Source: Oscillospiraceae bacterium (GTDB lineage: Bacteria; Bacillota; Clostridia; Oscillospirales; Ruminococcaceae). From it: a stretch of 64,000 nucleotides of DNA. A program made the position numbers and the translations under genes. Below, piece by piece: positions 9,188-17,290 of this stretch; position 1 is the stretch's first letter; each line of letters opens with the position of its first letter. The stretch covers positions 1 to 64,000 of the forward strand of contig JAFSIC010000043.1 in the NCBI GenBank assembly GCA_017439985.1, written 5' to 3'. A model generated the notes under the pieces. The model saw nothing but the letters and a program-made list of their open reading frames with translations, had not been told where the DNA came from and ran no database searches.

Positions 9188-10462
9188 TTATTTCTTAAAG
9201 CATTTTGCGCCGATGTCGCTTCTGTTGAATGCATTCTCGAAGGTGATATTCTTCACTGCAGCATAGGATTTATCCAGTGCCTCGCGGAGGTTGGCACCTC
9301 TTGCGGTAACGCCCAGAACACGACCGCCGCTGGTCAGGTATTTACCGTTTTCCAGTTTGGTGCCTGCATGATAAACGCTGATGCCTTCATACTGGCCATC
9401 CGCATTCAGACCGCTGATTTCGCAGCCTTTTTTGTAGGATTTTGGATAGCCGCCGCTTGCAATGATAACACAAGCTGCTGCGCCGTCATGGAATTTTACT
9501 TCGCAGTTTGCCAAGTCTTTGTTCCAGATCGCTTCCATAATATCAACCAGATCGCTTTCCAGCAGTTCCATAACAACCTGAGTCTCTGGGTCGCCGAAGC
9601 GGCAGTTGTACTCGATCACATATGGGCCTTTTGGAGTGATCATCAGACCAAAGTAGAGACAACCAGTGAAGGTTCTGTTCAGCTCGTTCATTGCTTTCAC
9701 GGTTGGCAGGAAGATACGGTCCATGCACTGCTGAGCAACTTCTGCAGTATAGAATGGGTTTGGAGCGATGGTACCCATACCGCCGGTATTGAGACCCTCG
9801 TCATTGTCCAGTGCGCGTTTATGGTCCATGGAGGAAACCATTGGTTTTACGGTTTCGCCATCAACAAAAGCCAGAACGGATACTTCCGGACCGGTGAGGA
9901 ATTCTTCCACAACGATCTGGTTGCCGCTTGCACCAAACACTTTATCTTCCATGATCTCATGGATGCCGTCTTTTGCTTCCTGCAGATCTTTTGCGATAAT
10001 AACGCCTTTGCCCAGAGCCAGACCGTCTGCTTTGATAACGATTGGGAATTCGTTGTTTTTCTCAACGTATTCCATTGCTTTGATCGGGTCGGTGAACACT
10101 TCGTAAGAAGCGGTTGGGATACCGAACTGTTTCATCATGTTCTTGGAGAACACTTTGGAGCTTTCGATTTCAGCAGCCAGTTTCTTAGGACCAAAGGTTT
10201 TGATACCTGCTTCGTTGAGAGCATCGACCATACCTGCAGCCAATGGGTCATCAGGAGTTACAAAGACCCAATCCATAGCCTCTTCTTTTGCGTATTTAAC
10301 CACACCTTCTACGTCCATCGCATTGATCGCAACACAGATAGCATCAGCAGCAATACCGCCATTGCCCGGAGCGCAGAAGATTTCCGGATTGTATTTGCTT
10401 TCTTTCAGCTTGCGGATAATCGCATGTTCACGACCGCCGGAGCCGATTACCAAGATTTTCAT
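9188..10462 (-). CDS. purD: Phosphoribosylamine-glycine ligase
   Basis: 424-residue ATP-grasp enzyme that joins phosphoribosylamine and glycine to GAR, step 2 of purine synthesis. MKILVIGSGGREHAI is the family N-terminus. GADGLALGKGV-like residues, DHKRALDNDEGLNTGGMGT and the metal-binding YNCRFGDPETQ are visible. The start at 10462 was chosen for its GGGAGGAG site and the family N-terminus, although the frame stays open upstream. It is the last gene of the pur operon. The 124-base gap before it contains two small hairpins. Confidence 0.95.
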   Translation of the reverse strand: MKILVIGSGGREHAIIRKLKESKYNPEIFCAPGNGGIAADAICVAINAMDVEGVVKYAKEEAMDWVFVTPDDPLAAGMVDALNEAGIKTFGPKKLAAEIESSKVFSKNMMKQFGIPTASYEVFTDPIKAMEYVEKNNEFPIVIKADGLALGKGVIIAKDLQEAKDGIHEIMEDKVFGASGNQIVVEEFLTGPEVSVLAFVDGETVKPMVSSMDHKRALDNDEGLNTGGMGTIAPNPFYTAEVAQQCMDRIFLPTVKAMNELNRTFTGCLYFGLMITPKGPYVIEYNCRFGDPETQVVMELLESDLVDIMEAIWNKDLANCEVKFHDGAAACVIIASGGYPKSYKKGCEISGLNADGQYEGISVYHAGTKLENGKYLTSGGRVLGVTARGANLREALDKSYAAVKNITFENAFNRSDIGAKCFKK

Positions 10463-10508
10463 AGGAAACTCCTCCCTTTTGAATCGAACTAAAAACCGTA
10501 AGGACTCC

Positions 10509-10573
10509 AAAAGCCCCGTTTCGCGAAACGAGGCTTGGAATCATCCTAAGGCAAGACGCGGTTCAGACCGCGT
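10509..10573 (-). repeat. Two hairpins between AICAR transformylase gene and purD
   Basis: CGTTTCGCGAAACG (near 10515-10530) is a perfect palindrome extended by AAGCC and GGCTT arms. CGCGGT and ACCGCG (about 10558-10573) make a second small stem. The first is followed by only four T residues on the minus strand, so these look more like processing or pausing elements than a full terminator. Confidence 0.5.
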
Positions 10574-10586
10574 GGTCGCCACGCCA

Positions 10587-11762
10587 CTAGTGGTGGAAGA
10601 GACGAACGCCGTTGAAGGCCATTACCATGTTGTATTTGTTGCAGGTGTCGATAACGTTGTCATCACGGATGGAACCACCTGGCTGTGCAATGAACTGAAC
10701 GCCGCTGCGTTTTGCACGCTCAATGTTGTCGCCGAATGGGAAGAACGCATCGGAGCCCAGAGCTACACCGCTCATCTGATCCAGCCATGCGCGTTTTTCT
10801 TCGCGGGTCAGAGGTTCTGGTTTCACATCGAAGAACTGTTCCCAAATGCCGTCAGCCAGTACATCCATGTAGTCATCAGAGATGTAAACATCGATGGTGT
10901 TGTCGCGGTCTGCACGACGGATGTCTTTGCGGAATGGCAGGTTCAGGGTCTTCTCGTGCTGACGCAGCCACCAGAAGTCTGCTTTGTTGCCAGCCAGTCT
11001 GGTGCAGTGTACACGGGACTGCTGACCAGCACCGATACCGATAGCCTGACCGTCTTTTACATAGCATACGGAGTTGGACTGAGTGTATTTCAGGGTGATG
11101 AGAGCGATCATCAGGTCGATTTTCGCTTCTTCAGTCATGTTTTTGTTTTCGGTTACGATGTTTTCCAGCAGATCTTTGGTGATCTTCATGTTGTTTCTGC
11201 CCTGTTCAAAGGTGATACCGAATACATCTTTGCGTTCGATTTCTCTTGGAACGTAGTTAGGGTCGATTTTAATTACATTGTAGCCGCCTTTGCGTTTGCC
11301 GCGCAGGATTTCCAGAGCTTCTTCGGTGTAGTCAGGAGCGATTACGCCGTCGGAAACTTCTTTTGCGATGATAGCAGCGGTTGCTTTGTCGCAGGTATCG
11401 GACAGAGCGATCCAGTCACCGTAGGAGGACATACGGTCAGCGCCGCGAGCTCTTGCATAAGCGCAAGCGATTGGAGACAGTTCCATACCTTCTACGAAGT
11501 AGATTTTTTTCAGGGTATCGGTCAGTGGGAGACCAACTGCTGCACCTGCAGGAGAAACGTGTTTGAAGGAAGCAGCTGCTGGAAGACCGGTTGCTTCTTT
11601 CAGTTCTTTAACCAGCTGCCAGCTGTTGAATGCGTCCATGAAGTTGATGTAGCCAGGTCTGCCGTTTACAACTTCAACAGGCAGCTCGCCATCAGCGTTG
11701 AAAATACGGGAAGGTTTCTGATTTGGGTTACAGCCATATTTGAGGGCCAGTTCGTTTGCCAT
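10587..11762 (-). CDS. AICAR transformylase (stand-alone domain)
   Basis: 391 residues that correspond to the transformylase half of PurH without the IMP cyclohydrolase half. It transfers a formyl group from 10-formyl-THF to AICAR, giving FAICAR. FKHVSPAGAAVG carries the catalytic K67-H68 pair. The start MANEL (11762) was preferred over ATG 11771 because GAGGA is nine bases before the former and directly abuts the latter. The missing cyclohydrolase activity is supplied by the next gene upstream in the operon, 35 bases away. Confidence 0.92.
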   Translation of the reverse strand: MANELALKYGCNPNQKPSRIFNADGELPVEVVNGRPGYINFMDAFNSWQLVKELKEATGLPAAASFKHVSPAGAAVGLPLTDTLKKIYFVEGMELSPIACAYARARGADRMSSYGDWIALSDTCDKATAAIIAKEVSDGVIAPDYTEEALEILRGKRKGGYNVIKIDPNYVPREIERKDVFGITFEQGRNNMKITKDLLENIVTENKNMTEEAKIDLMIALITLKYTQSNSVCYVKDGQAIGIGAGQQSRVHCTRLAGNKADFWWLRQHEKTLNLPFRKDIRRADRDNTIDVYISDDYMDVLADGIWEQFFDVKPEPLTREEKRAWLDQMSGVALGSDAFFPFGDNIERAKRSGVQFIAQPGGSIRDDNVIDTCNKYNMVMAFNGVRLFHH

Positions 11763-11797
11763 ATCAATCATTCCTCTTTCTTGAAATTAGAAAACAA

Positions 11798-12499
11798 TTA
11801 TTTGTTTTTGTTGATGATTCTGGTCTGTTCTTCGCCGGATTTCAGATTGATGGTGCGAACAAACAGGGATACTTTGTTTTCTTCGTTGAGGGATTCCCAA
11901 ACTTCTTTGGTAATGGAATCGATATCACCTTTGATTTCCATTGGAGTTGGGTCACCTTCGAAGGAAGGAATTGGATTACCATCGTGGAGGTAGGTGTGGA
12001 TGAAGTGACCTTCACCTGCAACCGGTTCCATGTACTCATAGAAGAATCTCTGAGCGGAGTCAGGGTTGCCGTTGTTGCTCTTCAGGATGGACAGTTTGTA
12101 GGTGCCATTTTCCACGATACCGGAAACGCGAGGGGTAAAGTTTGGAGCGTCTGGCTCGAAAGTACGGGTACGCAGAGCTTCTTCAAAGGTTTTGCCTTCT
12201 TTGATGAAGTCGTAAATGGTATCGGTCTGGTCACCGTTGGTTACGATGGTTTTGCCGTCGATCACGCGAACCGGTGCATAGATAACCAGAGATGGGTCGG
12301 ACAGTTTAGCAGGGTCGAAAGCTTCAGTACGGATGCCGCCTTCCTGTTCGATGAAGACACGGTTACGGCTGTTTACGCTGCGGCCCATGATGAAGTAAAC
12401 GATCACCATATTTTCGCCGTCTTCGGATTTACCGATGATGATGCCGCGGCCTGGGTATGTATTATTTCTCAGTTCTTCAGAAATGGTTTTACGGTTCAT
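11798..12499 (-). CDS. purO: IMP cyclohydrolase, PurO-like
   Basis: 233 residues. The pattern YPGRGIIIG followed by YFIMGRSVNSRNR is typical of the PurO-like IMP cyclohydrolase family, unrelated to the N-terminal domain of PurH. It closes FAICAR to IMP, the last step of the pathway. Its start overlaps the end of the alpha/beta hydrolase gene by 11 bases, which suggests translational coupling. The stand-alone AICAR transformylase follows. Together they replace the bifunctional PurH of most bacteria. Confidence 0.85.
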   Translation of the reverse strand: MNRKTISEELRNNTYPGRGIIIGKSEDGENMVIVYFIMGRSVNSRNRVFIEQEGGIRTEAFDPAKLSDPSLVIYAPVRVIDGKTIVTNGDQTDTIYDFIKEGKTFEEALRTRTFEPDAPNFTPRVSGIVENGTYKLSILKSNNGNPDSAQRFFYEYMEPVAGEGHFIHTYLHDGNPIPSFEGDPTPMEIKGDIDSITKEVWESLNEENKVSLFVRTINLKSGEEQTRIINKNK

Positions 12500-13262
12500 T
12501 GTTAATCTCTCCCTTGAATGAATCTTGAGTGTATCGCTTCATAAATTCAAGCAAAATCGGGTTTAGCCTGTCTGCTGCGCGCATAGGAAAATCATGAGAA
12601 CTTCTCGGCAGGATCCTTGTTTGACAGGAAGGATTCCTTCCCAACAGCTCCAGAGAACGCTTCATATCTCTCACTTCCCCGCTGCCGCAGATCGCGAGCA
12701 TCGGCAGCCTCAGGCTATCGTAGTTGGGGTAGTCGCAGAGCCTGACCGTATACTGAAAGAAGGCACGGTATTGCTCCGCTGTGATATGACGGCTGTATTC
12801 CGCCATATAGTCCGCCTGCTCCTTACTGTAATTCCAGTAACGTCCCTGCAGTCGAACCAGCCACTTCCAGTGCAGCATCGCTGCCATCATAGGCGCTAAG
12901 CGCAGGTACGGTTTCAGCGAACGTTCCGTCGGGTTGACCCACGCACTGAGGAGTACGGCACAGGAAAAACATTCCGGATGTTCACAGATTAGCATCAAGG
13001 CCAGCTGTGCACCGAGAGAATGACCGATCAGGCCGATTTTCTCCTTATTCAGCGAACGGATCAGCTCGAACAAAGCTTCCATCTGCTTCTTGGGTTCATA
13101 CAGCTCTTCCACAGATTCTCCCGCTCCGCATAAGTGCGGCACAAGCAGGTGAAACTGCTTCTGGAAGCAGTACTGCTGACAGAAGGTATCCAAAGCACCT
13201 GCTCCATGAAGAAGCAGAATCGTTGGATTTTTGCGATCGCCGTATTCGTCATAGTGGATCAT
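12489..13262 (-). CDS. Alpha/beta hydrolase inside the pur operon
   Basis: 257 residues with an alpha/beta hydrolase fold. LLLHGAGA (17-24) gives the oxyanion loop, GHSLG has the nucleophile S82, and SSHDF near the C-terminus gives the histidine. No signal peptide. The start at 13262 was chosen because GGGGTGG lies six bases upstream; a GTG at 13277 and an ATG at 13268 are alternatives. It sits between purN and the IMP cyclohydrolase gene and overlaps the latter by 11 bases. No purine-pathway step needs such an enzyme, so its substrate is unknown. Confidence 0.8.
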   Translation of the reverse strand: MIHYDEYGDRKNPTILLLHGAGALDTFCQQYCFQKQFHLLVPHLCGAGESVEELYEPKKQMEALFELIRSLNKEKIGLIGHSLGAQLALMLICEHPECFSCAVLLSAWVNPTERSLKPYLRLAPMMAAMLHWKWLVRLQGRYWNYSKEQADYMAEYSRHITAEQYRAFFQYTVRLCDYPNYDSLRLPMLAICGSGEVRDMKRSLELLGRNPSCQTRILPRSSHDFPMRAADRLNPILLEFMKRYTQDSFKGEINNEP

Positions 13263-13295
13263 GCTCATCCACCCCACTACTTATGATATCTTACG

Positions 13296-13898
13296 TTATT
13301 TCTTGTTTGCGATTTTTTCGCAAATCATTGCAGTTGCTTTTGGCAGCAGCTCCCACTCAGCCTGTTCCATAACTCTGCGCTGCAGAATTTCCGGAGTGTC
13401 GCCTTCTTCCACATAAACGGCTTTCTGGAGGATGATCTCGCCGCCGTCGCAGATCTCATTCACGAAATGAACGGTCGCACCGGTGACTTTCACACCTTTT
13501 TCCAGAGCAGCTTCATGGACTCTTAGACCATAGAAGCCATCACCGCAGAAGGAAGGGATCAAGGATGGGTGGATGTTGATGATACGGTCGCGATAAGCTT
13601 CGATGAACTTCGGACCGAGGATGGACAGGAAACCGGCCAGTACAACCAGCTGGATCCCGTTGTCCTTCAAAGTCTGTGCCAGAGCCAGATCATACTCTTC
13701 TCCGCTGGCAAAATCTTTTCTGCGAACAACCGCAGATGGAATGCCTGCATTTTCAGCACGGGTCAGAGCGTATGCTTTGGAGTTGGAGCTAACGACCAGA
13801 GAGATCTGGCCGCAGCCCAGTTTGCCGGCAGCCTGCGCATCGATGAGCGCCTGCAGATTGGTTCCGCCGCCGGAAACCAATACGGCAACTTTTACCAT
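13296..13898 (-). CDS. purN: Phosphoribosylglycinamide formyltransferase
   Basis: 200 residues, usual length. VLVSGGGTNLQAL is the phosphate-binding N-terminus; NIHPSLIP contains the catalytic N and H, and ICDGGEIILQ the catalytic D. It formylates GAR with 10-formyl-THF, step 3 of purine synthesis. Its start lies inside the end of purM (7-base overlap), so the two are coupled. Confidence 0.96.
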   Translation of the reverse strand: MVKVAVLVSGGGTNLQALIDAQAAGKLGCGQISLVVSSNSKAYALTRAENAGIPSAVVRRKDFASGEEYDLALAQTLKDNGIQLVVLAGFLSILGPKFIEAYRDRIINIHPSLIPSFCGDGFYGLRVHEAALEKGVKVTGATVHFVNEICDGGEIILQKAVYVEEGDTPEILQRRVMEQAEWELLPKATAMICEKIANKK

Positions 13899-14935
13899 AA
13901 TTCTACCTCTTTGTTACCTGCTTCGATTTTACCTACCAGGTAAGCGTCAACATCATTTGCTTTGAGAATTTCGATGGTCTTGTCAGCATCTTCTGCAGAA
14001 ACGATCATCATCATACCAACGCCCATGTTGAAGGTGTTGTACATATCGCGTTCAGGAATGTTGCCTTCTTTCTGGATCAGGTTGAAGATAGGCAGAACTT
14101 TTACGTCCTCTTTTTTGATAACAGCTTTTACGTTGTCATTGAGAGCACGTGGAATATTTTCATAGAAACCGCCGCCGGTGATATGGCTGATGGATTTCAC
14201 GTTTACTTCGTTCAGAACAGCCAGAACAGGTTTTACGTACAGTTTGGTTGGAGTCAGCAGAGTTTCGCCCAGAGTTTTGCCGCCCAGTTCGTCAGCAAAG
14301 CGATCCAGTGGTTTGTTTTCGATGTCAAATACTTTACGAACCAGAGAGAAACCGTTGGAATGTACGCCGGAAGATGGCAGAGCAACGATCACGTCGCCAG
14401 GTTTTACATTATCATTGTTAAGGATGCGTTTTTTATCAACGATACCAACGCTGAATCCAGCCAGATCGTAGTCATCGATTGGCATCATGCCAGGATGTTC
14501 TGCGGTTTCACCGCCGATGAGAGCAGCGCCGGACTGTACGCAGCCTTCTGCAACACCACTAACGATGGTAGCGATTTTTTCAGGAATATTTTTGCCGCAG
14601 GCAATGTAGTCCAGGAAGAACAGTGGTTTTGCGCCGCAGCAAATGATGTCGTTGACACACATTGCAACAGCATCGATACCGATGGTATCATGTTTGTCCA
14701 GCATGATAGCCAGTTTTACTTTGGTGCCGCAGCCGTCAGTACCGGAAACCAGTACAGGTTCTTCCATACCGGTCAGGTTCAGACCGAAGCAGCCGCCGAA
14801 ACCGCCAACGTCATCCAGACAACCTTCGTTGCGGGTGCGTGCGATATGTTTTTTCATCAGTTCTACTGCTTTGTAACCGGCAGTTACGTCAACGCCGGCA
14901 GCTTTATAACTTTCGCTGAAACTATTATTGCTCAT
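13892..14935 (-). CDS. purM: Phosphoribosylformylglycinamidine cyclo-ligase
   Basis: 347 residues, typical AIR synthetase. YKAAGVDVTAGYKAVELMK at the start, VSGTDGCGTKVKLA and GGETAEHPGM are family motifs for ATP and substrate binding. It closes FGAM to AIR. It overlaps purN by 7 bases and lies 116 bases after purF; that gap holds a small GC-rich hairpin and an AAGGAAAGG ribosome binding site. Confidence 0.97.
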   Translation of the reverse strand: MSNNSFSESYKAAGVDVTAGYKAVELMKKHIARTRNEGCLDDVGGFGGCFGLNLTGMEEPVLVSGTDGCGTKVKLAIMLDKHDTIGIDAVAMCVNDIICCGAKPLFFLDYIACGKNIPEKIATIVSGVAEGCVQSGAALIGGETAEHPGMMPIDDYDLAGFSVGIVDKKRILNNDNVKPGDVIVALPSSGVHSNGFSLVRKVFDIENKPLDRFADELGGKTLGETLLTPTKLYVKPVLAVLNEVNVKSISHITGGGFYENIPRALNDNVKAVIKKEDVKVLPIFNLIQKEGNIPERDMYNTFNMGVGMMMIVSAEDADKTIEILKANDVDAYLVGKIEAGNKEVELW

Positions 14936-15051: not shown

Positions 15052-16467
15052 TTAGCGTTTTTCGTTGATATGATAGTTGAATTTATCGTACTTATTCTCT
15101 TTCTGGCTTGGAACTCCTGCCGGATAGATGCCATCGAAGCAAGCGGTGCAGAATTCACAGTTTGTGCTGCAGTGCGCGATCTTCTTCACACCTTCCAGAC
15201 TCAGATAGCCCAGAGAATCTGCGCCGATTTTCTGGCGGATCTCATCAATGCTCATTTTGCAGGCGATCAGCTTGTCTTTGCTGTCGATATCGGTGCCGTA
15301 GTAGCAAGGGTTGATGAACGGAGGAGAAGAAATACGAACGTGAACCTCGGTTGCACCTGCTTCACGCAGCATTCTGATGATGTTAGCACTGGTGGTACCG
15401 CGAACGATGGAGTCGTCCACCATAACAACACGTTTGCCTGCAACGGTTGCTTTCAGAACATTCAGTTTGATTCGAACTGCATCTTCACGCTGTTTCTGAG
15501 TTGGCAGAATGAAGGTACGGCCGATATAGCGGTTTTTGATGAAGCCAACACCGTATGGAATACCGCTCTGCTGAGCGAAGCCCAGCGCCGCATCCAAACC
15601 GGAGTCAGGAACGCCGATAACAACGTCTGCCTGACATGGGCTTTCCAGCGCCATGAAAGCACCTGCTCTACGGCGGGCGTCATGAACGCTTGCACCCTCG
15701 ATGACAGAGTCAGGACGAGCGGTGTAAACATATTCAAAGACACAGATATGGCCTTTGCTGCCGCAGTGACTTTCAATAGAACGAACACCATCCTGATCAA
15801 CGATCACGATCTCGCCCGGTTTAATATCTCGTACAAAAGTAGCGCCGATGGAATCGAACGCACAGCTTTCCGATGCAAAGACAACATCATCGCCCAGCTG
15901 ACCCATGCACAGAGGATGGATACCTTCCGGATCGCGAGCGGCGATCAGTTTCTGTGGGGACATGATGATCAGAGAGTAGGAGCCTTTCAGACGGTGCATC
16001 GCCTGTTCCACTGCAGCTTCAATGGATTTTGCATTCAAGCGTTCTTTGATGATAACATGAGAGATGATCTCAGCATCGGTACTGGAATGGAAGATCGCAC
16101 CATTCAGTTCCAGTTCCTCACGGAGTTCCGGAACATTGACCAGTGTGCCGCTGCTTGCCAGTGCCATGGTACCTTTGATGTGACGTACAACCAGTGGCTG
16201 TGCATCACTGCGGGAGCCGTTGGCATATTTGGAGTATTCGACATGACCGATTGCCATGTTACCCAGACCCAGCTTGGAAGCCAGCAGTTCCGGATTAAAG
16301 GTTTCCGGAACCAGACCCATATCACGGTAGGATTTGATTACGCCATCATCGTTTACTGCGATACCGCAGGACTGCTGACCACGATGCTGCAGGGAGAACA
16401 AAGCCATATACGCCTCGGAAGCGACATCGCTCTGTTTTTTATTTGTAAAAATACCAAATACGGACAT
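15052..16467 (-). CDS. purF: PurF-like amidophosphoribosyltransferase, glutaminase site degenerate
   Basis: 471 residues aligned end to end with Fe-S type PurF. The phosphoribosyltransferase half looks intact: GVPDSG (286-291), KNRYIGRTFI and the PRPP loop VMVDDSIVRGTT (348-359). Cluster cysteines C242, C388, C437 and C440 are kept. The N-terminal glutaminase half is altered. CGVFGI, whose cysteine is the nucleophile, reads MSVFGI here; GHVR reads GHVE77; and the HNGN oxyanion loop reads SSGT (105-108). D131 is retained. A TAA codon two codons upstream rules out a longer N-terminus. It may use free ammonia or need a partner (inference). Confidence 0.9.
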   Translation of the reverse strand: MSVFGIFTNKKQSDVASEAYMALFSLQHRGQQSCGIAVNDDGVIKSYRDMGLVPETFNPELLASKLGLGNMAIGHVEYSKYANGSRSDAQPLVVRHIKGTMALASSGTLVNVPELREELELNGAIFHSSTDAEIISHVIIKERLNAKSIEAAVEQAMHRLKGSYSLIIMSPQKLIAARDPEGIHPLCMGQLGDDVVFASESCAFDSIGATFVRDIKPGEIVIVDQDGVRSIESHCGSKGHICVFEYVYTARPDSVIEGASVHDARRRAGAFMALESPCQADVVIGVPDSGLDAALGFAQQSGIPYGVGFIKNRYIGRTFILPTQKQREDAVRIKLNVLKATVAGKRVVMVDDSIVRGTTSANIIRMLREAGATEVHVRISSPPFINPCYYGTDIDSKDKLIACKMSIDEIRQKIGADSLGYLSLEGVKKIAHCSTNCEFCTACFDGIYPAGVPSQKENKYDKFNYHINEKR

Positions 16468-16502
16468 TTCTTACACACCCTTTCCTAAAATATCAATCTA
16501 AA

Positions 16503-17006
16503 TTACAGTTCTGCAACCAATTTCTGCAGATTTGCGTCTTTTTTTGCAACAGCGTCTTTCATCTGCTGTTTCATATCAACCAGCTTCTGAGCCAGTTCTG
16601 CATTGGACAGAGCCAACATCTGAACAGCCAGAATTGCTGCGTTTTCTGCGCCGTCGATTGCAACGGTAGCAACAGGAATGCCGCTTGGCATCTGTACGGT
16701 TGCCAGCAGAGCATCCAGGCCATCCAGGGTAGAGGATTTTACCGGAATACCGATAACAGGCAGAGTGGTGTGGGCTGCCAGAACGCCGCCCAGGTGAGCT
16801 GCTTTGCCTGCTGCTGCGATAATAACGCCGAAGCCGTTTTCAACTGCTTTGGAAGCAAATTCGCTGGCTGCTTCCGGGGTACGATGAGCAGACATAACTC
16901 TTGCTTCAACAGGAACACCGAAGCTTCTCAGTTTTTCGATGGCAGGTTTCACGATTGGAAGGTCGCTGTCACTGCCCATAACGATAGCTACTTTTTTGAT
17001 TTCCAT
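16503..17006 (-). CDS. purE: N5-carboxyaminoimidazole ribonucleotide mutase
   Basis: 167 residues. GSDSDLP, SAHRTPE and [16 protein letters not shown] are PurE signatures for the carboxylation step from (N5-C)AIR to CAIR. The start at 17006 follows a strong GGAGG site; the reading frame stays open for 55 codons upstream, but those overlap the structured RNA and its terminator. It is the first protein gene of the pur operon, 42 bases after that terminator. No purK is in the window. Confidence 0.95.
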
Positions 17007-17048
17007 GGTTTTTCCTCCATTTGATCGCTCGCCTTGACACAGGAAATG

Positions 17049-17076
17049 AAAAACGCTGTGACTCTCATCACAGCGT
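17049..17076 (-). terminator. Terminator between the 6S-like RNA and purE
   Basis: ACGCTGTGA (17076-17068) pairs with TCACAGCGT (17061-17053), a perfect 9-bp stem with a six-base loop, followed by five T residues. It ends the structured RNA, or attenuates transcription into purE. Confidence 0.85.
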
Positions 17077-17290
17077 ACTACTTCCCTATACAGTGCCAAA
17101 GACGCACTTATTTTTCTGTTCAGTCTGCATTTCACCCTTGTTGGAGCTTGCACTTCTTGTGCAGGTATCATAACAAGTATTCAGTTTACTCAAAGCCAAA
17201 TACCACATGGAAAAGCCTCCCGCAAGTTTGCTGCAGATCAGATTTTATTCATATTCCATTCCCTGTTTTGATAAAATCAAAAAGGAAATC
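17049..17290 (-). ncRNA. ssrS: 6S-like structured RNA upstream of purE
   Basis: A promoter at 17325-17297 and the terminator at 17076-17049 bound a transcript of about 240 nt without a credible open frame. It can fold into the 6S layout. A closing stem joins 17215-17202 to 17094-17081 (CTTTTCC with GGGAAG, then ATGTGGT with ACTGTAT, partly wobble). A large central bubble follows, with a small hairpin on its 3' side (AGTGC with GCACT). The terminal arm pairs CTTGTT with AACAAG and is capped by TGCAC, AAGAA, GTGCA. 6S RNA mimics an open promoter and binds sigma-A RNA polymerase. A structured purE leader of another kind is the alternative. Confidence 0.55.

Follow-up and report, generated by a model that had tools for sequence, protein, structure and literature searches.

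A PurF homologue from an Oscillospiraceae bacterium with a dismantled glutaminase site, a conserved synthase half, and a predicted dependence on ammonia

Introduction

Purine synthesis is taught as drawing on glutamine at its first committed step, and an arginine and an asparagine have roles in the glutaminase site of the Escherichia coli enzyme, PurF. Several systems that depart from this scheme are described. Replacement of Cys1 by Ala or Ser leaves E. coli PurF able to use ammonia (PMC3261824, crediting Mei and Zalkin 1989), and the same paper gives no detectable glutamine activity for the Cys1Ser enzyme. In crenarchaea, PurF homologues lacking the cysteine (PurF') lie near purine genes, and an ammonia role was suggested for them as one, untested, possibility (Brown et al. 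2011, PMC3261824); in that account, each crenarchaeal genome with PurF' also carries a Cys-containing PurF. In a different pathway, human CPS1 is described as retaining an inactive glutaminase-like domain, in which the cysteine has become Ser294, and as taking external ammonia (PMC4655335).

Here we analyze a purF gene in a 64,000-nucleotide stretch of an Oscillospiraceae genome (contig JAFSIC010000043.1, positions 1 to 64,000), the whole of which we refer to as the window. We think it probable that its product is the working and sole detected PurF of the genome, in the reduced form of a phosphoribosylamine synthase that depends on ammonia, a reading drawn from sequence comparisons.

Results

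The window gene is a 471-aa open reading frame matching the curated TIGR01134 model over its full length (479 bits; cut-off, 350) and scoring 452 bits with 1gph, the Bacillus subtilis PurF structure. It lies in a cluster of the order purE-F-M-N-hydrolase-O-H-D (Table 1), with purL located elsewhere in the genome; a model match beginning at residue 61 places the true start of purE downstream of the ORF start. The original prediction was of a PurF whose glutaminase site is lost and whose synthase half is intact, and both the motifs and the conserved-site counts (see below) bear this out. The N terminus reads MSVFGI, where intact relatives typically have EECGVFGI; GHVEYSKYA stands at the site typically occupied by GHVRYSTTG, so that E77 takes the place of the glutamine-binding arginine; and ASSGT, which includes the predicted SSGT at residues 105 to 108, stands where AHNGN is typical. 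The PRPP loop (VDDSIVRGTTS) is kept, as are the four Fe-S cysteines C242, C388, C440, and C443, which are invariant in a 27-row alignment (A1), also as predicted. By motif, the protein is thus a PurF homologue in a purine cluster and not a glutamine-dependent amidotransferase, since it lacks the N-terminal cysteine, the glutamine-site arginine, and the oxyanion asparagine.

Table 1. Coordinates of purF, its diagnostic sites, and neighboring purine genes in the window
Feature	Coordinates	Strand	Basis or remark
purF, amidophosphoribosyltransferase homologue with dismantled glutaminase site	15052..16467	-	TIGR01134, 479 bits, and motif reading
First two purF codons; 21-bp in-frame deletion (relative to sister) directly after them	16462..16467	-	DNA alignment with L033
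In-frame TAA two codons before ATG; rules out a longer in-frame reading with propeptide	16471..16473	-	Sequence
Codon 77, Glu replacing the glutamine-binding Arg of GHVR	16237..16239	-	Glu common to sister; Leu in three other congeners
Codons 105-108, SSGT replacing HNGN (oxyanion loop)	16144..16155	-	Motif reading
PRPP-binding loop DDSIVRGTTS, intact	15388..15417	-	Motif reading, alignment A1
Fe-S cysteine C242, kept	15742..15744	-	Invariant column of A1
Fe-S cysteine C388, kept	15304-15306	-	Invariant column of A1
Fe-S cysteine C440, kept	15148-15150	-	Invariant column of A1
Fe-S cysteine C443, kept	15139-15141	-	Invariant column of A1
purE	16503..17171	-	TIGR01162; model matches from residue 61
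purM	13892..14935	-	TIGR00878
purN	13296..13898	-	TIGR00639
Alpha/beta hydrolase in pur cluster, between purN and IMP cyclohydrolase gene	12489..13277	-	Weak NCBIfam matches, all below cut-off
PurO-like IMP cyclohydrolase	11798..12499	-	TIGR01922, 57 bits, below cut-off of 158
AICAR formyltransferase	10587..11771	-	NF005492, 740 bits
purD	9188..10510	-	TIGR00877; model matches from residue 17

The manner of the loss is evident from the nearest relative (G001, the sister; 80% identity), whose purF is also present in locus L033 of an uncultured Clostridia bacterium. A DNA alignment shows that the start of the window purF differs from that of the sister by an exact 21-bp in-frame deletion of seven codons (Asp-Ile-His-Glu-Glu-Cys-Gly), which took out what remained of the propeptide together with Cys1 and Gly2, with both flanks conserved. 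A hidden propeptide or a frameshifted start was considered and rejected: besides this deletion and the in-frame TAA upstream, none of the three upstream frames (∼50 codons) resembles the HEECGVFGI region, in keeping with the original claim that no propeptide is concealed. The operon PurF of the sister has GHVEYSKYANG, identical to the window, and NNG in place of HNG, but keeps the cysteine. The arginine was probably lost before the cysteine in the window lineage, because a Cys-retaining sister already has the same Glu, and chance or sequencing error is an unlikely source of the motif losses, given the precise deletion with conserved flanks and the Glu shared with the sister. In three other congeners, all of which keep the cysteine, the Arg is replaced by Leu and HNG by FNG. 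The question of whether the loss is clade-wide therefore has a divided answer: among genus members in which PurF was found, the arginine is gone from all five operon copies, but the cysteine is gone from one of the five, that of the window species. In a sixth genome of the genus, which is 77% complete, no match to PurF exceeds the cut-off.

The gene nonetheless appears constrained as a whole, with the catalytic glutaminase site removed. First, dN/dS (NG86) between the window and sister genes is 0.107 for the glutaminase half and 0.096 for the synthase half, values to be read with caution at dS of 1.6 and 1.2, respectively, near saturation. Second, at columns conserved in ≥95% of 41 intact PurF relatives, the window protein is changed at 8 of 57 glutaminase-half sites versus 1 of 76 synthase-half sites (p=0.005), the eight being the propeptide Glu, Cys1, Gly2, A25, E32, V56, R77, and N106. 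When each of the 41 intact rows was left out in turn, glutaminase-half changes numbered at most six, and the two rows reaching six carry 11 and 6 synthase-half changes. The sister PurF shows 3 of 57 versus 0 of 76 (p=0.076), and in several other degenerate PurFs, too, the glutaminase-half excess taken singly is not significant (p=0.31 in G004, p=0.4 in G330). On the intact frame, the dN/dS values (subject to the near saturation of dS), and the synthase-half conservation, we reject a pseudogene. For the same reasons, together with the open frames of the neighboring pur genes, we regard it as improbable that purF is decaying or useless and that purines are salvaged, even though many members of the order may lack de novo purine synthesis, because 88 of the 297 sampled genomes have no PurF match at E≤1e-70, and even though the CTP synthase PyrG was not found in the window genome (G000).

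A working window PurF might still be accessory to another copy. A search of the window genome (94.35% complete, 63 contigs) with TIGR01134 returned the window PurF and GlmS and nothing else, so the genome-wide check for an intact second PurF found none by this model. The sister does have one (PurF2), with Cys and Arg both kept, adjoining carA-carB/dapF. At the matching site of the window genome, inside a 55-kb contig, PurF2 is absent and glmS stands in place of carA-carB-purF2; the flanks are collinear, with mutY and an exporter on one side and genes for a membrane protein, a DUF protein, an arsC-like protein, and a glycosyltransferase on the other (several named by eye). Because the neighbors are collinear on both sides within the contig, the second copy is absent from that site and has not been lost in an assembly gap. 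That an intact PurF was missed and the window copy is accessory or regulatory is accordingly a reading to which we give little weight: it draws on the sister's PurF2 beside carA-carB, on an intact PurF clustered with glutamine synthetase, carA, carB, and pyrG in genome G016, and on the genome being 94% complete in 63 contigs, which leaves room for an unplaced copy, itself unlikely; against it stand the glmS replacement and the three congeners (87, 95, and 99% complete), which likewise have a single, Arg-less PurF. The proposal that a second PurF supplies the ammonia was thus not borne out in the window genome, either by the model search or at the matching site.

In searches with the PurF and class-I models, the other protein source that had been proposed, a separate glutaminase, found no positive evidence. 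The PurF model, which is not a general class-II search, recovers only GlmS besides PurF, and a class-I model search recovers only GuaA, a CarA that is itself dead by motif, and a PuuD-like protein of 234 aa (the names GuaA and PuuD were assigned by eye). A glutaminase protein that docks in place of PurF's own domain and feeds it ammonia has parallels in split glutaminase/synthase pairs elsewhere, such as PurQ/PurL (PMC3261824), and the uncharacterized alpha/beta hydrolase within the pur cluster could be counted for it. However, the sister, whose PurF keeps its cysteine, has this embedded hydrolase too (L033, 9214-9981), and the native glutaminase domain is still present and constrained in the window protein, and such a partner seems to us unlikely, although a little less so than salvage or a missed second PurF.

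The CarA of the window genome (G000:C6) presents a similar picture. It has LGIGLGHQ and VQFIPE versus GICLGHQ and FHPE of intact CarAs, so that the catalytic Cys is replaced by Gly and the His by Ile; the class-I triad and the FHPE and GICLGHQ motifs are what we take to be the CarA catalytic motifs. The protein scores 298.8 bits, just under the family cut-off of 307.35, and its gene is in a pyrR-pyrC-pyrF-carA-carB run collinear with that of the sister, to which CarB is 94% and CarA 71% identical. At conserved columns from 22 intact rows (duplicates, one truncated row, and one partial row dropped), changes number 32 of 71 in the glutaminase domain versus 15 of 45 in the N domain, which is not significant (p=0.25), and by this count CarA has drifted across the whole subunit. 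Other amidotransferases of the genome keep their motifs: LGICYGHQ and FHPE in GuaA, CGICNGFQ and SHGEGRF in PurL, and MCGIVGF, GHTRWATHG, and VVHNG in GlmS. By motif, then, synthesis of carbamoyl phosphate and of phosphoribosylamine appears to have lost its use of glutamine, with PurL, GuaA, and GlmS unaffected, and because these three keep their glutaminase motifs, the cell is not independent of glutamine.

PyrG was not found in the window genome by TIGR00337 and is also missing from the class-I match list. No PyrG was found in G002-G004, G006, G027, and G356 either, although pyrC, pyrF, carA, and carB are present in the window genome. Because no CTP synthase was found, use of ammonia leaves this gap in nucleotide synthesis unexplained.

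Across relatives, the three losses tend to coincide. CarA was found in 31 of the 62 genomes searched, and its motifs are dead in the five members of the window genus that have CarA and in G006, G009, G026, G027, and G356 (both copies), the Cys being replaced by Gly, Asp, Ser, or Ala and the His replaced too in all but G009. The comparison covers 32 genomes with PurF read, the window genome included, in which an intact PurF is one keeping Cys and Arg; outside it are G005 (no PurF match at 1e-60, 77% complete) and G015, G021, G022, G031, and G035 (no or partial PurF). Six of the 32 lack an intact PurF (G000, G002, G003, G004, G027, and G356), and all six lack both an intact CarA and PyrG; among the other 26, PyrG is missing from one (G006, 84% complete), and among the 25 others with CarA, an intact CarA is missing from three (G006, G009, and G026). 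The PyrG Cys motif is intact in 24 of the 25 genomes with PyrG, the remaining one being a truncated match. Raw Fisher tests, which ignore kinship, give 1.1e-4 for PurF against dead CarA and 7.7e-6 for PurF against absence of PyrG, and 0.007 and 0.001 when the window genus is reduced to one row, with relatedness otherwise ignored. Of 3 phylogenetic pairs for degenerate PurF against dead CarA, 1.4 agree and 0.1 disagree in direction on average, and of 4 for no intact PurF against no PyrG, 3.0 agree and 0 disagree, with five changes on the tree for PurF, five for CarA, and four for PyrG; the tree-aware pairing stays above 0.05 because there are too few independent events. There are also counter-examples, with G006, G009, and G026 having a dead CarA yet a PurF that keeps Cys and Arg, G016 having a degenerate operon PurF and an intact CarA, and G001 having both intact and degenerate forms. 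We therefore treat the joint loss of PurF, CarA, and PyrG motifs or genes as a strong lead, not proof.

The G016 genome also suggests how the two kinds of enzyme may be arranged. Its operon PurF has Leu for Arg, and its intact CarA is in an island that contains, in one run, a piece that by eye resembles glutamate synthase (without an NCBIfam match at 1e-25), glutamine synthetase (best TIGR00653, 393 bits, below the cut-off of 429), an intact PurF2, CarA, CarB-DapF, PyrG, and LL-diaminopimelate aminotransferase. In G001, the carA-carB/dapF-purF2 part of the island is present and PyrG is elsewhere in the genome. This distribution suggests two enzyme sets, one that uses ammonia and belongs to the pur and pyr operons and another that uses glutamine and lies next to glutamine synthetase, the latter seemingly missing from the window species; that nitrogen supply regulates the two sets is a guess. 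Separately, we note that CarB (carbamoyl-phosphate synthase large subunit) is fused to DapF in G016 (L218, 5997-10178) and, judged by length and eye, in G001 (L087, 801-4766).

PurFs lacking the cysteine recur in other Clostridia. Six further genomes have PurFs beginning MGVFGI, MGIFGI, or MGIFAI (L058, L059, L062, L063, L064, and L152, all but the last being ruminant gut Clostridia MAGs), with Met at the Cys position, Arg kept, and Gln90 replaced by Glu, and with one PurF above the cut-off each. By eye, purE, purM, purN, a PurO-like gene, purB, and AICAR formyltransferase genes surround the L058 PurF, and purine genes adjoin the Cys-less single PurF in all three loci viewed (L058, L082, and L168). 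In the genus of Anaerococcus provencensis, one PurF match is present in 29 of 31 genomes; 27 of these matches begin at position 2 or 3 of the model, and the two late ones, starting at 112 and 130, are uninformative on the cysteine. The letter-by-letter reading covered all but nine of the 29, the two late ones being among the nine, and the cysteine is missing from all 19 newly read. In fifteen of these, Ser occupies the Cys position and the HNG Asn has become Asp, with Arg kept in 14, and the other four (L168-L171) begin MFGIWN, have Trp for Arg, and lack C440 and C443, the one viewed in full lacking all four Fe-S cysteines. The order-level survey gives start positions that, among the matches listed, are all at model position 1. 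CarA and PyrG matches were found in none of the six genomes of the MGVFGI clade, and in the Anaerococcus group in none of 23 (CarA) and none of 5 (PyrG) genomes searched, so these groups have no bearing on the pairing described above.

Identical matched PurF sequences were merged (from 162 to 144 frames), and 60, hand-picked to cover the groups, were used in a tree of the synthase half. This requires four changes for Cys loss, seven for Arg loss, and eight for any degeneration, five of the eight being forced by supported branches, although the method is a quick one and some branches are long. The window PurF groups among pur-operon PurFs of its own order, in trees without archaeal rows. As a side observation, six loci (L013, L021, L036, L039, L041, and L081) have near purF a second PurF-like protein (MGGFFGA...YHSHLGTRRGGM) without an N-terminal Cys and with 29 to 33% identity to the window PurF, and PurF matches of 170 to 190 bits may belong to the same family.

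The Anaerococcus-group sequences bear on whether a serine could have replaced the nucleophile, such that glutamine is still used. Ser or Thr nucleophiles serve other Ntn hydrolases, the window protein would expose Ser2 after removal of Met, and the 15 Anaerococcus-group proteins have Ser exactly at the Cys position. The window Ser, however, aligns one residue past the Cys, with Gly2, the Arg and Asn are also gone, and the six MGVFGI-type proteins have Met, not Ser, at the Cys position. With glutamine activity of E. coli Cys1Ser reported as undetectable (PMC3261824), we find a serine nucleophile the least credible of the alternatives considered.

Discussion

Use of free ammonia, one of the readings offered in the original prediction, best explains the loss of the glutaminase motifs with an intact synthase half, the nitrogen source being deduced from sequence. 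If the window PurF is an ammonia-dependent synthase, free NH3 or NH4+ would enter it, probably via the former glutamine pocket or by way of the domain interface, and NH3 would react with PRPP in the phosphoribosyltransferase site, which is intact. The glutaminase domain may stay as a structural and regulatory shell, and ammonium in the cells' surroundings would presumably be sufficient.

A broader reading, which we hold tentatively and rate below even chances as a whole, is that some Clostridia moved nucleotide synthesis off glutamine in one coordinated change. PurF and carbamoyl-phosphate synthase would have become ammonia enzymes and the glutamine-dependent CTP synthase would have been dropped, with a dispensable glutamine island (PurF2-CarA-CarB/DapF, plus GlnA and PyrG in G016) providing the glutamine route to those relatives in which it persists, perhaps when nitrogen is limiting. 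The replacement of Arg by Glu here, and of Gln by Glu at position 90 elsewhere, may make a carboxylate-binding site an ammonium-binding one.

If the ammonia reading of PurF and CarA is correct, free ammonia can replace glutamine in nature for two nucleotide pathways, and ammonium-dependent growth is predicted. Naming such proteins after their family (glutamine amidotransferase; EC 2.4.2.14) would then put the wrong nitrogen source into metabolic models of these bacteria. Cys-less PurF homologues are already known as PurF'; what is apparently new is the sole bacterial copy, the repeated origin, and the pairing with CarA and PyrG. Among the matches listed from the open-licence PMC literature, seen as titles and abstract starts, none reports a bacterial sole PurF without the cysteine, and likewise none a repeated origin or a pairing with dead CarA and missing PyrG.

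One of the three closest described systems is canonical B. subtilis-type PurF (1gph/1ao0), with which the window protein shares a full-length relationship, the PRPP loop, the four Fe-S cysteines, and a place in a pur cluster, but from which it differs in lacking Cys1, the glutamine-binding Arg, the oxyanion Asn, and the propeptide. It resembles crenarchaeal PurF' in lacking Cys1 and lying near purine genes (PMC3261824), but it is bacterial, the sole PurF found, and has lost the Arg and Asn as well. From its sequence context we do not file it as PurF', because it is the sole PurF found in its genome and is placed, in trees without archaeal rows, among the PurFs of its own order. With vertebrate CPS1 it shares a retained glutaminase domain with catalytic loss, the same kind of loss that is seen in the CarA of the window genome, where, unlike in CPS1, CarA is a separate subunit. 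CPS1 is a different enzyme from PurF, depends on N-acetylglutamate, and functions in detoxifying ammonia to urea; as a putative ammonia-type enzyme, the window PurF would thus work in a manner analogous to CPS1 and not be a member of its family.
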